From: Streptomyces sp. NBC_01142
Lineage (GTDB): Bacteria; Actinomycetota; Actinomycetes; Streptomycetales; Streptomycetaceae
Reading direction: 5' to 3'
NCBI RefSeq assembly: GCF_026341125.1
Contig: NZ_JAPEOR010000001.1
Coordinates: 1,240,001 to 1,304,000 of the forward strand
Length of the DNA: 64,000 nucleotides
Part shown: in pieces, positions 13,824 through 19,392 of the stretch
How the letters are laid out: each line of letters starts with the position of its first letter
How positions within the stretch are numbered: position 1 is the first letter of the stretch
Notes under the pieces: model-generated
Database searches by the model: none
What the model saw: the letters and a program-made list of their open reading frames with translations, nothing else
What the model was told of the DNA's origin: nothing
Position numbers and translations under genes: made by a program

Positions 13824-16800
13824 TTGCGCCCCAGACCAGGGTTGTTCAAACCCAGATCACGAAGATCCGCAGTTCTCACCCCCGTCATCACGTCCGTCGC
13901 CGCCCTGGCCGTTCTCGGTGGCCTGGCCGTACAGCCTGACGTGCTCAACCGGGACACCGGACAGCGCATCGACCCGGCGGGCAACTCCTACGACTGGTAC
14001 GAGGACACCGCTGCGGAACAGTTGCGGCAGGACCAGTGCCTGATGGACGGTGTGCTGCGCCTGGGCGGGCCGTCCATGGCGACCACCGCGCAGGACGGAC
14101 TCAACCAGCCGCAGGACAAGCTCCATGAACTGGCGAACCAGAAGCACTGGCAGGACACGCCGCTCGCCCAGGCGTACGAGAAGGACAAGGACGAGGGTAG
14201 AAAGGAGGCGGCCGCCCTCCACGTCCTCCACGAGGGTTGGAAGAAGCCCCTCGATGGGCTGGAGATTCCTGCCGGCTTCAGCGGTTCCGACTTTTACTGG
14301 CCGCCCGGTACCCGCGACGGCGAGAACTTCTACTCCCAGACCGGTCTGACCCAATGGATCTCCGACCGGTTCTGGAAGAACGAAAGCGACTTCTACGAAG
14401 ACCCCACCCCCAGGGCCGAGGGGCAGACGGTCAAGGCCGTCAAGGATCTGGGCACTCCGCTGTACGGGAAGGACCCGGACCCGAACCAGGACGACTGGAG
14501 CCGCAACGTCGCCGAGCAGGACGCCTTCGAGCACCTGTCGGACTGGTCTCTGGAGCCCACGGGTGCGGACAACGCCCGCGTCTTCCTCGCGTCCGGCGGC
14601 TTCCCCCGCACCGCCCCGCAGCCGGGCGCGGCAGAGCACCGCATCGCGGTCGAGGATCTCAAGACCCGGTTCGCGTCGTGCGCGTGGCGTGACCCGATGG
14701 ACCCGAACAAGGTGCTGGGTGACATCTCCGCCACCGCCGCTGCGGAGTGGCAGCAGGAGATCGCCTCCCAGCAGGTGCAGCGCAACCAGCTCCTGAATGC
14801 CAGCAAGGATGCCACCAAGGCTCTCGCCGGCGGCGCGAAGGCGTTGGGGGACATGCTGGGGCACTCGTGGGCCGCCGATCGCCTCGCCCGCTGGCAGGAC
14901 TACTGGTCCCCCGGCGGGGTCGGCTGGGTCGGCGACAAGCCGGCGGTCATCGAGGTGCGCGCCGCGAAGGGCAAGTGTCTTGACGTCCAGGGCGGCGGGA
15001 AGGCCAACGGCACCCCGGTCCAGGTGTATACGTGCAACGGCTCGGCGGCGCAGGAGTGGGTGGTCGAAGGCGACGACAGTGGTCTTCACCTGCGGAACGC
15101 CAGCTCCCAGAAGTGTCTGGACGTGTCGGACGGGAAGGCCGACAACGGCACGAAGATCCAGATCTGGACCTGCGTCAGCTCCCCGGCGCAGACGTGGGAG
15201 TACAACCTGCGCGCCACCACGGCCCTGAAGAACGCCGGCTCGGGCAAGTGCCTGGATTTGCACACGTTCGACAACGGAAGCAACTCGTGGCTGTGGACGT
15301 GCAACGGCACCGACCCGCAGAAGTTCACCATCAAGCCGTCGGGCCACAACGGCTCCGTTCCGCCCAAGTCCCAGTTCGACAAGGCGAAGAAGGGCATCGC
15401 GGACGCCCAGGCAGGAGCGAAGAAGCAGCTGGCCGCGCTCAAGGCCCAGCTGGAGAGCGCCAAGAAGTCGGCAGCCGCTTCCGACACCGCCGAGCAGGCG
15501 GCGTACGGGATCGCGGACGCGGCGGGTGCGCCGCGAGGCCGTGGTCTGCTGGTGGGTCAGCAGAAGGCGCAGGTCACCAAGGGGGCGGTCGCCGCGCTGG
15601 AGGCGATGGTGAAGGCCGGCACGACCGCCGAGGCCGCCACCCGGGCTTCCGCGGGCGACAGCGAGACGATCGCGCAGCGCGCTTTGGCTCAGACCGCGCA
15701 GGTCAAGGCGGAGTTCCGCAAGGAAGCCGCGCACACGGCCGAGTTGCAGGCGAAGGCCGCGGCGGATGCGGCGAAGGTGCACCGGGACAACGCGAAGAAG
15801 GACAAGGAAACCGCGGAGGCCAAGCTCGCCGAAACCGTGAAGGCGGAGGCGGATGCCAAGGCGGCCGCTGCCGACGCGCATGCGAAACGGCTCGCCGCCG
15901 AAGCCGAGGAGGCGACGGCGAGGAAGGAGAAGGAGACCGCCGCGGTCAAGCAGGCCGAGGCAGCGCAGCACAAGGAGAACGCCCAGGCCGAGGCGGCGAC
16001 GGCAAAGACCGCCAAGGAAAAGGCGGAGGCCGCAGAGGCGACCGCGGTCGAGAAGAAGAACGCGGCGGTCGGGGCCCGCGACAAGGCCCGCGATCTGCGG
16101 GACGACGCGTGGGACGCCGCGCAGAAAGCCGACGCGGCCCGCGCGAAGGCGGACGCGAAGGAGGCCTTCGCCGAGGCCCACGAGTCCGACAGCAACGCCC
16201 AGGAGTCCAGGGCGGCCGCGAACGCGGCCGACAAGCATGCGGATGACGCCGAAGCAGCCGCCGGCCGGGCCCGCACCGAGGCGGATGCCGCCACGCAGGC
16301 GGCAGCGGAGGCAGACGCCGCGGCCACCCGCGCCGAGGCGGCCGCAAAGCGGGCCCGCTCGAACGCGGACGACGCCCAGGCCGCCAAGCTGAAAGCCGAC
16401 GCCGCCGTCAAGACAGCGACCAGCGCCGCCGCTGATGCCATCGACGCGTCCGAGCATGCCTCCTCGGAGGCCAAGGCGGCCGTCAAGCTGGCGGAGGAGG
16501 CGGAGAAGCTCGCCAAGACCGCCAAGTCCCATGCGGACGAGGCGAACAAGGAGGCCGGCAAGGCTCTCGCGGCATCGGCCAAGGCCGCGGGCTACGCCCA
16601 CGTCACCGCTCAGGCCGCGGTGGATGCCGGGAACGCCGCAGCCCAGGTCGCCAAGCCGGCCAACGACGCCATCCAGCTCGGCTCCCCCTACGTCACCACG
16701 GACTCGGCCGCGAGCCTGGTCGTGCTAACCGGGCAGGCGTCGAAGTCGATCGCCGACCAGCAGAAGGCCGTCGCCGACGCCCACGCCAAGAACGCACAGA

Positions 16801-18734
16801 CGGAAGCAGCCGCGGCCAAGAACCTCGCCGAGCAGGCACAGGGCGACACGAAGATCGCCTACCAGCACGCGGCCAACGCCGCCGGCCACGCGGCGACCGC
16901 CCGTGGGTATTCGAAGGAGGCCCTGGGCTACGCGGCTGACGCCGCCAAGGCCGCCTCGCAGGCAGCGGCGTCCCTGGCCCGCACGATCGAGTACGACCGT
17001 AAGGCCACCGAGGATGCGGCCGCCGCGGACAAGGCGGCCGGGCGCGCCGAAGGCCACGCCAAGCAGGCCCGCGACTCCGCCGACCAGGCCGCCCTCGACG
17101 CCCAGGCCGCACGCGACGCCGCAGCCGCGGCCGAGCAGTCCGCCAAGGACGCACGCGCAGCCGCCACCCGCGCCGACACCGCCGCCACCGAAGCCGAACA
17201 GGCGGCCAAGGACGCGCTGAAGTACGCGCAGGAGGCACAGAAGGCAGCAGAGGAAGCGGCCCGCAACGCCGCGAACAAGCAAGTCTCTACCGGCGCGGGT
17301 ACCGGAGTCGGCGGCACGTGGTACGTCGTCGACGAGGACAGCATCGAGATCACCGACGCCAAGCAGCACAACCCCTGCGTGATCACGATCGGCTTCGAAG
17401 GCTGCACCACCACCTTCACGGTCACCTTCAGCGCGACGGTCGACTTCTTCCTCTGCACCAACCCCGACACAACGGCCAGCGCCGGCGGCTGCCCGCCGGA
17501 GGACACGCTGCTCATCGAGAGCAAGCGCATCCCGGGTCTGAAGAAGGACGTCACCAAGTACTTCTCCAAGTTGCAGCTCATGGAGATGACGCTCACCTAC
17601 AAGCTCATCAAGGCGGTCCTGGTCCAGGACTTCGTCGACTGCTGGCATGGCAGCGCCAGCGGCTGCGCCTGGGCCGCAAGCAACTTCATCCCCGGCAAGG
17701 CGTTCGCGAAGGCCGCCGAGGGGATTCGCGCTCTGGACGCCGCGATGAAGACCGGCGTCGGGGTCCGTGACGCGTTCAAGGCCCTCAAGGCCCTCGACCT
17801 GGACCCCGCGACCCTCGCCATGATCGAGCGGTCGGTGAACGCCTACGAGGACGCGTTCACGGCCTGTGCGCGCAACAGCTTCCCCGGCGCCACCCAGGTG
17901 CTGATGGCGGACGGTTCCCACAGGCCCATCAGCCAGGTGGAGGTCGGCGATCTGGTCAAGGCCACGGATCCGGCTTCCGGCAGGCTGCGGGCCCGGCAGG
18001 TCACCGATACCTACCAGCACGACACCCAGCGGCTGGTCGACCTCACCATCGCCGGTGGCGGCACGCTGGCCAGCACCGCGGGCCACAAGTTCTACGTGGT
18101 GGACCGAGGCTGGACGCTGGTCTCCGACCTGCGCGTCGGCGACCGCCTGCGCACCCCGGACGGCTCCGTCCGCGCGCTGACGGCCCTCCGTGACCGCTCG
18201 GGCCTGGCTCCGCGCACCGTCTACGACCTCACGGTCGACGACCTGCACACGTTCTTTGTGCGTACGTCGGGTGAGCGGCCCCAGGATGTGCTCGTTCACA
18301 ACTGCCTGGACCTCGTGCTGCACGAGAGAGACCGCGGGGGACACACGCTCAGGGATCATGTGAACCCCAGCCCGCAGCAAGCCGTTAACAAGGCCATTGA
18401 CGACATGCGAAGGATCCCCGGCCACCCGGGAGTAACGAGCGTCTGGAAGGACCTCGCAACGGCCCAGGCCTCTGTGGACGCGGCCTTCGCGAAGTGGTAC
18501 GCGACTCATAGGAATGAGCTGAAGACGTGGATGGAGAACACTCCCAAGGACTCGGAGAGTGCGGTGCACCTCAAGGCTTTCAAGGTCCAGCTGGACACCC
18601 CGGGCTCACTCGGGACCATCTACCCTCACACTGGCGTTGCGGACGCTCGTTCGGCCGGGAATTGGGTCTCCATCACCCTGAAGAGGTCCCGGCACAAGCC
18701 CGGGTACATGGTCTACACGTCGCACCCGGAATGA
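13824..18734 (+). CDS. Polymorphic toxin: beta-trefoil lectin, Ala-rich coiled coil, Hint domain, RNase A-like CdiA-CT toxin
   Basis: The protein has 1636 residues from TTG 13824, preceded by AAGGAA at 7-nt spacing. Regions in order are an export signal or anchor (17-37); an N-terminal region of unknown type (40-370); and a ricin-type beta-trefoil lectin with three KCLDV/L repeats (about 373-507). Then comes a huge Ala/Lys/Glu/Asp-rich helical stalk (about 515-1150) and a folded linker with several Cys. A Hint (hedgehog/intein) autoprocessing domain runs from Cys1348 through VLMADGSHRPISQVEVGDLV and AGHKFYV to VHN-C1494. The last 143 residues are the toxin, starting LHERDRGGHTLRDHV and ending YMVYTSHPE. 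This matches the bacterial RNase A-like CdiA-CT family, whose active site uses His, Arg, Thr and Tyr (family knowledge). The Hint domain presumably releases the toxin after export. Delivery route is unknown. Confidence 0.88.
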   Translation: MRPRPGLFKPRSRRSAVLTPVITSVAALAVLGGLAVQPDVLNRDTGQRIDPAGNSYDWYEDTAAEQLRQDQCLMDGVLRLGGPSMATTAQDGLNQPQDKLHELANQKHWQDTPLAQAYEKDKDEGRKEAAALHVLHEGWKKPLDGLEIPAGFSGSDFYWPPGTRDGENFYSQTGLTQWISDRFWKNESDFYEDPTPRAEGQTVKAVKDLGTPLYGKDPDPNQDDWSRNVAEQDAFEHLSDWSLEPTGADNARVFLASGGFPRTAPQPGAAEHRIAVEDLKTRFASCAWRDPMDPNKVLGDISATAAAEWQQEIASQQVQRNQLLNASKDATKALAGGAKALGDMLGHSWAADRLARWQDYWSPGGVGWVGDKPAVIEVRAAKGKCLDVQGGGKANGTPVQVYTCNGSAAQEWVVEGDDSGLHLRNASSQKCLDVSDGKADNGTKIQIWTCVSSPAQTWEYNLRATTALKNAGSGKCLDLHTFDNGSNSWLWTCNGTDPQKFTIKPSGHNGSVPPKSQFDKAKKGIADAQAGAKKQLAALKAQLESAKKSAAASDTAEQAAYGIADAAGAPRGRGLLVGQQKAQVTKGAVAALEAMVKAGTTAEAATRASAGDSETIAQRALAQTAQVKAEFRKEAAHTAELQAKAAADAAKVHRDNAKKDKETAEAKLAETVKAEADAKAAAADAHAKRLAAEAEEATARKEKETAAVKQAEAAQHKENAQAEAATAKTAKEKAEAAEATAVEKKNAAVGARDKARDLRDDAWDAAQKADAARAKADAKEAFAEAHESDSNAQESRAAANAADKHADDAEAAAGRARTEADAATQAAAEADAAATRAEAAAKRARSNADDAQAAKLKADAAVKTATSAAADAIDASEHASSEAKAAVKLAEEAEKLAKTAKSHADEANKEAGKALAASAKAAGYAHVTAQAAVDAGNAAAQVAKPANDAIQLGSPYVTTDSAASLVVLTGQASKSIADQQKAVADAHAKNAQTEAAAAKNLAEQAQGDTKIAYQHAANAAGHAATARGYSKEALGYAADAAKAASQAAASLARTIEYDRKATEDAAAADKAAGRAEGHAKQARDSADQAALDAQAARDAAAAAEQSAKDARAAATRADTAATEAEQAAKDALKYAQEAQKAAEEAARNAANKQVSTGAGTGVGGTWYVVDEDSIEITDAKQHNPCVITIGFEGCTTTFTVTFSATVDFFLCTNPDTTASAGGCPPEDTLLIESKRIPGLKKDVTKYFSKLQLMEMTLTYKLIKAVLVQDFVDCWHGSASGCAWAASNFIPGKAFAKAAEGIRALDAAMKTGVGVRDAFKALKALDLDPATLAMIERSVNAYEDAFTACARNSFPGATQVLMADGSHRPISQVEVGDLVKATDPASGRLRARQVTDTYQHDTQRLVDLTIAGGGTLASTAGHKFYVVDRGWTLVSDLRVGDRLRTPDGSVRALTALRDRSGLAPRTVYDLTVDDLHTFFVRTSGERPQDVLVHNCLDLVLHERDRGGHTLRDHVNPSPQQAVNKAIDDMRRIPGHPGVTSVWKDLATAQASVDAAFAKWYATHRNELKTWMENTPKDSESAVHLKAFKVQLDTPGSLGTIYPHTGVADARSAGNWVSITLKRSRHKPGYMVYTSHPE

Positions 18735-18747
18735 GAGTCACCTAGCA

Positions 18748-19392
18748 ATGGATCGTAAGGACATCTGGATCGACTTCGGTTTCAGCGGCCTCACCAAGTG
18801 GTACGGCAGCCTCTTCGAGTTCACTCCGTTGGAAATCGTCGTGGCTGCCGCGGACTGGGGGGAGGGTGCTTACGTACCCACCCTCCGAGAAGACGCCGTG
18901 AGGCTGTTGGAGTCACCCCTGCCGACCAGGGTGATCGACATTCTGTGGTGTGCGGCCGTGCGCTCTAAGTTCGTCCCGGATGAGCCATGGATGGACGGAC
19001 GCGATTGGCTCCGCCAGATCGTGGACGTTTGCGAGGAACGCATCCGCCGGGACGAACCGCGATTTGATGCCCTCCCTCCTGCGCCCGTCTGCGATCCGGA
19101 ACTGAGGGACGCGGTCCTCGCCGAGGTGCGAACCACCGCAACGGTGCTGGAGCACACCACCGCCGACCACCCCTACTACGGGGTGCCGGAAGTGGTCCCG
19201 TCGCTGGAACGGGTCGTCACCGAGGTCGACCCCGACCTCGGGTTCCGGCTCTTCCTTCGGGTCCTCAAGGCGTACCTGATTCCGATCAGCGAGTCGCAGC
19301 ACCTCCGGTACCTCGAACTGGGCGAGAGATTCGGGTACAACGAGTTCGTTGTCGATGACGGCACTCTCCAGTTCATGCCGCGTGCAGACTGA
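18748..19392 (+). CDS. Candidate immunity protein for the RNase A-like toxin
   Basis: This 214-aa soluble acidic protein starts 13 bp after the toxin stop codon and has no signal peptide. I do not recognise a named domain. It begins MDRKDIWIDFGFSGLTKWYG, is rich in Asp/Glu/Trp, and looks alpha-helical in the second half (VPSLERVVTEVDPDLGFRLF). Cognate immunity genes nearly always follow polymorphic toxin genes directly, and acidic immunity proteins commonly block basic RNase toxins, so immunity is the best reading. The evidence is position and composition, not homology. No clear ribosome site precedes ATG 18748, which suggests coupling to toxin translation. A hairpin at 19410-19448 ends the unit. 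Confidence 0.65.
   Translation: MDRKDIWIDFGFSGLTKWYGSLFEFTPLEIVVAAADWGEGAYVPTLREDAVRLLESPLPTRVIDILWCAAVRSKFVPDEPWMDGRDWLRQIVDVCEERIRRDEPRFDALPPAPVCDPELRDAVLAEVRTTATVLEHTTADHPYYGVPEVVPSLERVVTEVDPDLGFRLFLRVLKAYLIPISESQHLRYLELGERFGYNEFVVDDGTLQFMPRAD

Follow-up and report, generated by a model that had tools for sequence, protein, structure and literature searches.

The question raised by this stretch of DNA, a window of 64,000 nucleotides (64 kb) from Streptomyces sp. NBC_01142, is what the giant open reading frame (ORF) at positions 13824-18734 encodes, and to which known systems its product is related. An earlier note, made from the letters alone, had read it as a giant polymorphic toxin with a lectin, a stalk, a Hint domain and an RNase A-like tip, and both the Pfam matches and the composition agree with this. 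We conclude that the product, a 1636-residue Streptomyces toxin that is probably secreted, has a Gram-positive polymorphic toxin architecture of lectin, helical stalk, Hint and RNase A-fold tip. The earlier reading of the architecture therefore stood, but it lacked four things described below: the likely immunity gene, the exchange both of tips and of binding modules, the orphan cassette of tip and immunity gene that the same genome contains, and the likely kinship with umbrella toxins. As a whole, the locus is best explained as coding for a secreted one-chain streptomycete polymorphic toxin with a lectin, a stalk, an RNase freed by Hint and a downstream immunity protein, and we give this explanation a probability of roughly 0.77. 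The features on which the argument draws are as follows.

13824..18734, + strand: toxin gene, an ORF of 1636 amino acids with a TTG start.
13824..13943, + strand: putative N-terminal basic and hydrophobic export segment, residues 1-40 (direct sequence reading; similar segment in relatives).
13977..14939, + strand: conserved all-helical N-domain, residues 52-372 (alignment of 23 sequences; AlphaFold2).
14040..14144, + strand: ALF-like half repeat, residues 73-107 (hhalign 79%, 88%, 91%).
14559-14660, + strand: weaker match to the other ALF half, residues 246-279 (hhalign 10.5%, P 0.003).
14955..15326, + strand: ricin-B beta-trefoil lectin, residues 378-501 (Pfam PF00652 E 2.1e-25, PF14200 E 6.2e-31).
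15366..17348, + strand: stalk rich in Ala and presumably helical, residues 515-1175; hinge segments lie near 570 and 945-955 (composition, proline positions).
17346..17864, + strand: Cys-containing pre-Hint domain, residues 1175-1347 (alignment; 81 relatives in a scan of genome contigs).
17877..18302, + strand: PT-HINT, Ser1352 to His1492-Asn1493 (Pfam E 2e-19 in the full protein, 4.9e-21 in a further scan).
18303..18731, + strand: RNase A-fold toxin tip, residues 1494-1636 (143 residues).
18748..19392, + strand: likely immunity gene, 214 amino acids, distantly CdiI_2-related, 13 bp after the toxin stop.

A GAAGGA stretch ~8 bases 5' of the TTG codon supports it as the start, as does the relative P0008, which begins at the same place (MRFRPGLFN, against (M)RPRPGLFK for the window protein). 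The reading frame is intact, and its GC content at third codon positions is 0.89, compared with 0.69 in the largest overlapping antisense ORF.

We assessed the C-terminal end by the profile search against the bacterial RNase A family that the earlier note had proposed. When the last 144 residues were scanned alone, PF18431 RNAse_A_bac was matched well above its cut-off (E 2.4e-11, 44.9 bits, cut-off 27); the family was not listed in the Pfam scan of the full-length toxin, even at E up to 1. The tip has the RNase A-like fold of CdiA-CT Ykris, the Yersinia kristensenii toxin. The active site listed in PMC9086364 consists of His175, Arg186, Thr276 and Tyr278; of these the His and the Thr are kept in the tip, and Arg and Tyr are replaced by Lys1523 and His1634. 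Across 49 tips the Arg-equivalent position holds Lys in 18, Leu in 15, Arg in 5 and other residues in the rest, and the Tyr-equivalent position holds Tyr in 37, Phe in 8 and His in 4. Both Lys1523 and His1634 are retained in P0002 and P0008, the tips of which are 93% and 72% identical. With His1512, Lys1523 and His1634, the tip may catalyse the reaction much as vertebrate RNase A does, by His-Lys-His chemistry. The tip was matched in 14 of 150 sampled genomes of the genus, the source genome included, and Gram-positive members of the family have already been named in a review (PMC9086364). The earlier emphasis on Gram-negative contact-dependent inhibition (CDI) systems as the main source of CdiA-CT RNase A-like toxins thus needs correcting, as the tip family occurs outside the Gram-negatives as well.

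A search for Hint families, likewise proposed earlier, matched PT-HINT, with Pfam boundaries at residues 1361-1493 in the full-length protein. The Hint had been placed from Cys1348 to His-Asn-Cys1494; the domain and its exit junction stood, but Cys1348 did not stand as the nucleophile. It can be seen that SFPGATQVLMADG aligns with CFLAGTAVLMADG, the Hint start of a UmbC-type ORF, and that within the entry C-A-R-N-S-F-P-G-A-T the segment S-F-P-G-A-T pairs with C-F-L-A-G-T of the UmbC-type Hint. From this alignment, Hint position 1, the nucleophile position, is Ser1352. Cys1348, four residues upstream, is invariant in 10 aligned pre-Hint domains. To place these residues in a wider family, we used the loci given by a scan of genome contigs with the pre-Hint domain, which found 81 relatives, of which 80 were kept (78 from Streptomyces, one from Kitasatospora and one from Kutzneria). 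The pattern at the Hint start was readable in 78/80 loci and not in the other 2/80, and 77 of the 78 readable loci have SF there. The exit is His1492-Asn1493-Cys1494, and Asn-Cys is found in 69/80 loci.

Directly behind the toxin lies the 214-residue frame at 18748-19392. When the 80 loci were searched with the profile of its family, a family ORF was found directly behind the tip in 59/59 loci with RNase A-like tips and in 0/21 with other tips; two of these 21 have a distant family ORF, at 732 and 1628 bp. In the 59 loci the open frames begin between 299 bp before and 195 bp after the toxin stop. In a second set, gathered by searching genomes of the genus for the tip, the family ORF lies beside the tip in 14/14 loci; the two sets overlap, with apparently 5 contigs in common. 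A protein database search gave 105 relatives of the protein at E up to 0.001, one with a precomputed CdiI_2 assignment, and 11 of 18 tip-bearing proteins could apparently be paired by genome with an immunity relative, which is a weaker sign of linkage. PF18593 CdiI_2 was matched by 5/28 members of the family; the 18748-19392 product itself had no PF18593 match in Pfam, and the CdiI chain of PDB 5e3e went undetected with the family profile. Judged by its linkage, 18748-19392 is likely the immunity gene of the toxin. The strictness with which an immunity-like gene accompanies these tips argues that the tip would harm bacteria, including at a minimum the cells of the producer. We conclude that the loci show the RNase A tips as what appears to be a diversified streptomycete weapon with a strictly linked immunity-like family.

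With PT-HINT ahead of a variable tip and a linked ORF downstream, the locus has two features expected of a polymorphic toxin processed by a Hint. Automatic reading yielded 77 tips. A single RNase A-like group takes in 56 of them, with three more added by eye; the other 21 are spread over further groups, of which the biggest has 13 members. Pfam assigned 49 of 66 tips to RNAse_A_bac, 2 to Ntox27 and 1 to a DddA-like family. The group of 13 has tips of ~134-144 residues (L049, L050, L051, L053, L054, L055, L098, L100, L104, L107, L110, L116 and L118); the tip of L104 matched Ntox27 just above the cut-off, those of L049, L055 and L118 matched no Pfam family, and the group is probably a divergent Ntox27. 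In a maximum-likelihood tree built from 59 N-domains, 10 changes are needed to account for the RNase A tip label, and well-supported branches force at least 8 of them; shuffled labels gave a mean of 12.6 changes, and 21/500 shuffles were as low as 10. On this tree the scaffold is polymorphic, its tips having been reshuffled against the N-domains. On the pre-Hint tree the 13 members of that group are gathered in few clusters, among the clusters listed, and therefore exchange may also take place upstream of the pre-Hint domain. Open frames of ~2450-2600 residues that contain the pre-Hint domain (G015, G068, G082, G140, G143 and G172) represent a further, longer architecture.

The three KCLDV-type trefoil repeats that had been read in the protein correspond to KCLD motifs at residues 384, 430 and 475, inside the Ricin_B_lectin match. 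The stalk, first estimated at about 640 residues of Ala-rich helix, runs to 661 residues, 238 of them Ala (36%), with prolines only at 570, 945 and 955, in keeping with a presumed helix. Its first segment was detected in 55/80 of the related loci and the hinge segment in 65/80. The ricin segment is present in 48/59 N-domain loci. In its place, L083, L084 and L121, and by eye L085, carry a laminin-G/concanavalin-type domain N-terminal to the N-domain, and no binding module was recognised in L090, L091, L093, L094, L096 and L126. The binding module of the stem family is, as far as domain matches indicate, exchangeable: ricin-B, laminin-G-type or none recognised. Locus L125 has a 3028-residue frame with an unrelated tip; ahead of its N-domain runs a long stretch of repeats, beta-propeller-like by eye, which in Pfam gave at best a sub-threshold match (E 0.009).

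A streptomycete protein of this kind invites comparison with the umbrella toxins. In UmbC a twin-arginine translocation (TAT) signal is combined with two sets of four ALF repeats, eight in all, with two coiled coils and with C-terminal domains that vary; UmbB within ten genes serves as a criterion, UmbA is the lectin carrier, and for UmbC1 the HINT and toxin are modelled at the tip of the stalk (PMC11062931). By these standards the 13824-18734 product is outside the umbrella toxins as defined: it has no Pfam ALF match (PF03752) and no UmbB neighbour was found. PF03752 matches are also absent from its genome, and occur in 24/40 other genomes of the genus. No UmbA/UmbB-like stretch was found in the 64 kb window, none was found in the locus DNA examined at 78/80 loci, and a UmbB query gave no match in the source genome, in a search run without a positive control.

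The N-domain is predicted to be almost entirely helix (AlphaFold2, predicted local distance difference test score 83.9). Compared with ALF regions by hhalign it matched at 79% and 88% in two profile comparisons; against a single-repeat ALF profile the first half (residues 73-107) matched at 91% and the second half (residues 246-279) weakly. The two comparisons scored 42.6 and 47.3, and the best of 100 column shuffles each reached 19.1 and 17.7 (0/100 as good in both). Reversed alignments scored 16.1 and 14.6, and three unrelated alignments 10-14. The ALF-like pattern looks as if one repeat had been split in two. Furthermore, two of the 80 loci, L124 and L127, code for UmbC proteins, with ALF repeats recognised by eye and UmbA- and UmbB-like genes adjacent, and these have the pre-Hint domain in common with the toxin family (31% and 25% identity).

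A potential explanation that would not need to invoke common descent of the stem is that this is an ordinary polymorphic toxin which resembles umbrella toxins by convergence, being long, secreted, rich in Ala and equipped with a Hint and a swappable tip. Consistent with this, low-complexity-filtered BLAST against UmbC-type ORFs found only the Hint domain in common (in 4/6 loci and 2/12 short pieces), and no umbrella entry was among the matches listed when the N-domain model was searched in Foldseek and VIA-align. However, the ALF-like scores lie far above all of their controls, and the pre-Hint domain recurs in two proteins with ALF repeats recognised by eye and UmbA/UmbB-like neighbours. We regard convergence as less likely, and common ancestry of part of the toxin stem with UmbC as likely. 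Because of the ALF-like repeat in the N-domain and the pre-Hint domain common to two UmbC proteins, the evidence suggests a one-chain umbrella relative with a built-in lectin. The fullest form of this proposal, which we offer tentatively and at somewhat less than even odds, sees in the family a single-chain umbrella toxin that is self-contained: a relative of UmbC with stalk, pre-Hint domain and exchangeable tip, in which one split ALF repeat would stand in place of a ring of eight, exchangeable in-chain carbohydrate-binding modules (ricin-B, laminin-G/concanavalin) would do the job of UmbA, and the RNase A-like tip of this member may work by His-Lys-His catalysis.

Two further alternatives concern what the protein does. 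The replacement of two Yersinia-toxin catalytic residues might mark a decayed, non-toxic C-terminal tip on the producer's own lectin-bearing wall or adhesion protein; this is improbable, as the frame is intact, P0002 and P0008 retain the same two residues, the immunity gene is kept and both replaced positions are variable across the family. Ricin-B lectins are also found in anti-eukaryote toxins. A streptomycete exotoxin against insects has been reported (PMC13171429). Even less probable is that the lectin and the RNase A-fold enzyme are directed against amoebae, fungi or insects and not bacteria, as the immunity-like gene is strictly linked and some of its family match CdiI_2.

For the secreted one-chain polymorphic toxin we propose the following course of events. 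The N-terminal segment would export the toxin by a general pathway, and the built-in lectin, here a ricin-B trefoil, would bind a glycan of the rival's wall or surface, possibly in a contact-dependent manner. UmbA lectins bring umbrella particles to a teichuronic acid-like polymer of target streptomycetes (PMC13274773), and a wall glycan is therefore the first candidate ligand. The long helical stalk would position and present the C-terminal end, and the Hint would cut before Cys1494, releasing an RNase of 143 residues that belongs to the bacterial branch of RNase A and, once inside the target, would degrade its RNA. The 214-residue protein would shield the producer by neutralising the enzyme. 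In its stem the toxin is probably a distant relative of UmbC, which forms the core of umbrella particles, and it has its lectin in its own chain, where umbrella particles borrow one from UmbA.

Close to the toxin locus are genes for an ATPase-type regulator and a GNAT enzyme; of two helix-turn-helix matches, the upstream one is weak and the downstream one clear, and genes for pyruvate kinase and acetate kinase come next. Pfam found no secretion gene in the 10 flanking ORFs and the ORF just upstream of the toxin, consistent with the earlier remark that no type VI secretion system (T6SS), type VII secretion system (T7SS) or two-partner secretion gene is adjacent. Umbrella kinship would provide a model for secretion and aiming that uses none of these three.

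RNase A tips occur at two other places in the same genome, and the tip family is therefore used with more than one scaffold. At L163 5936-7691 (contig C1, ~2.054-2.056 Mb) there is an orphan tip of ~144 residues with no stem, followed directly 3' by a 438-residue frame of two fused immunity domains (CdiI_2 E 8.3e-9), which looks like a spare tip-immunity cassette. Downstream immunity frames of ~430-475 residues, twice the usual size, are also seen at L056, L058, L078, L095, L112 and others; they may give protection from two variants of the tip, although L163 is the only locus in which two domains were seen. At L162 6598-9469 (contig C1, ~0.475 Mb) two WXG100 ORFs come first, then an RNase A toxin of 573 residues, then another fragment that is RNase A-like. 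The 573-residue ORF has the same tip family as the window protein (PF18431 E 1.8e-20), whereas Pfam finds neither lectin nor Hint in it, and as it adjoins the two WXG100 ORFs it probably takes a type VII route.

Among known systems, CdiA-CT of Yersinia kristensenii (PDB 5e3e) belongs to the same bacterial RNase A branch, but the scaffold here is unrelated to CdiA/CdiB, and Lys and His stand in place of Arg186 and Tyr278. RicinB domains in polymorphic toxins are as such already known: Zhang et al. 2012 (PMC3482391) list them among the adhesion domains and suggest that they enhance target-cell contact. The RicinB proteins described there are joined to RHS repeats or a toxin module, however, and the passages considered make no mention of the stem family, its ALF-like repeat or its module exchange. 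The closest comparison is with UmbC (PMC11062931), likewise a streptomycete polymorphic toxin with ALF-type material, a long coiled-coil stalk, a Hint, a variable tip and a downstream immunity gene, and two UmbC proteins have the pre-Hint domain as well. Both systems also use ricin-B and concanavalin-type lectins for aiming. In contrast to UmbC, the window protein has a single, apparently interrupted ALF-like repeat and not eight, no umbA or umbB was found nearby and no ALF family match in its genome, and the lectin is within the chain and not carried by UmbA through UmbB. The role of the stalk and target entry are listed as open questions for umbrella toxins (PMC11062931). If our reading is true, a one-gene lectin-stalk-tip chain and its single immunity gene would be far simpler to work with than the multi-protein umbrella particles when studying how a toxin aimed by a lectin gets through a Gram-positive wall, and what glycan is recognised by each lectin.
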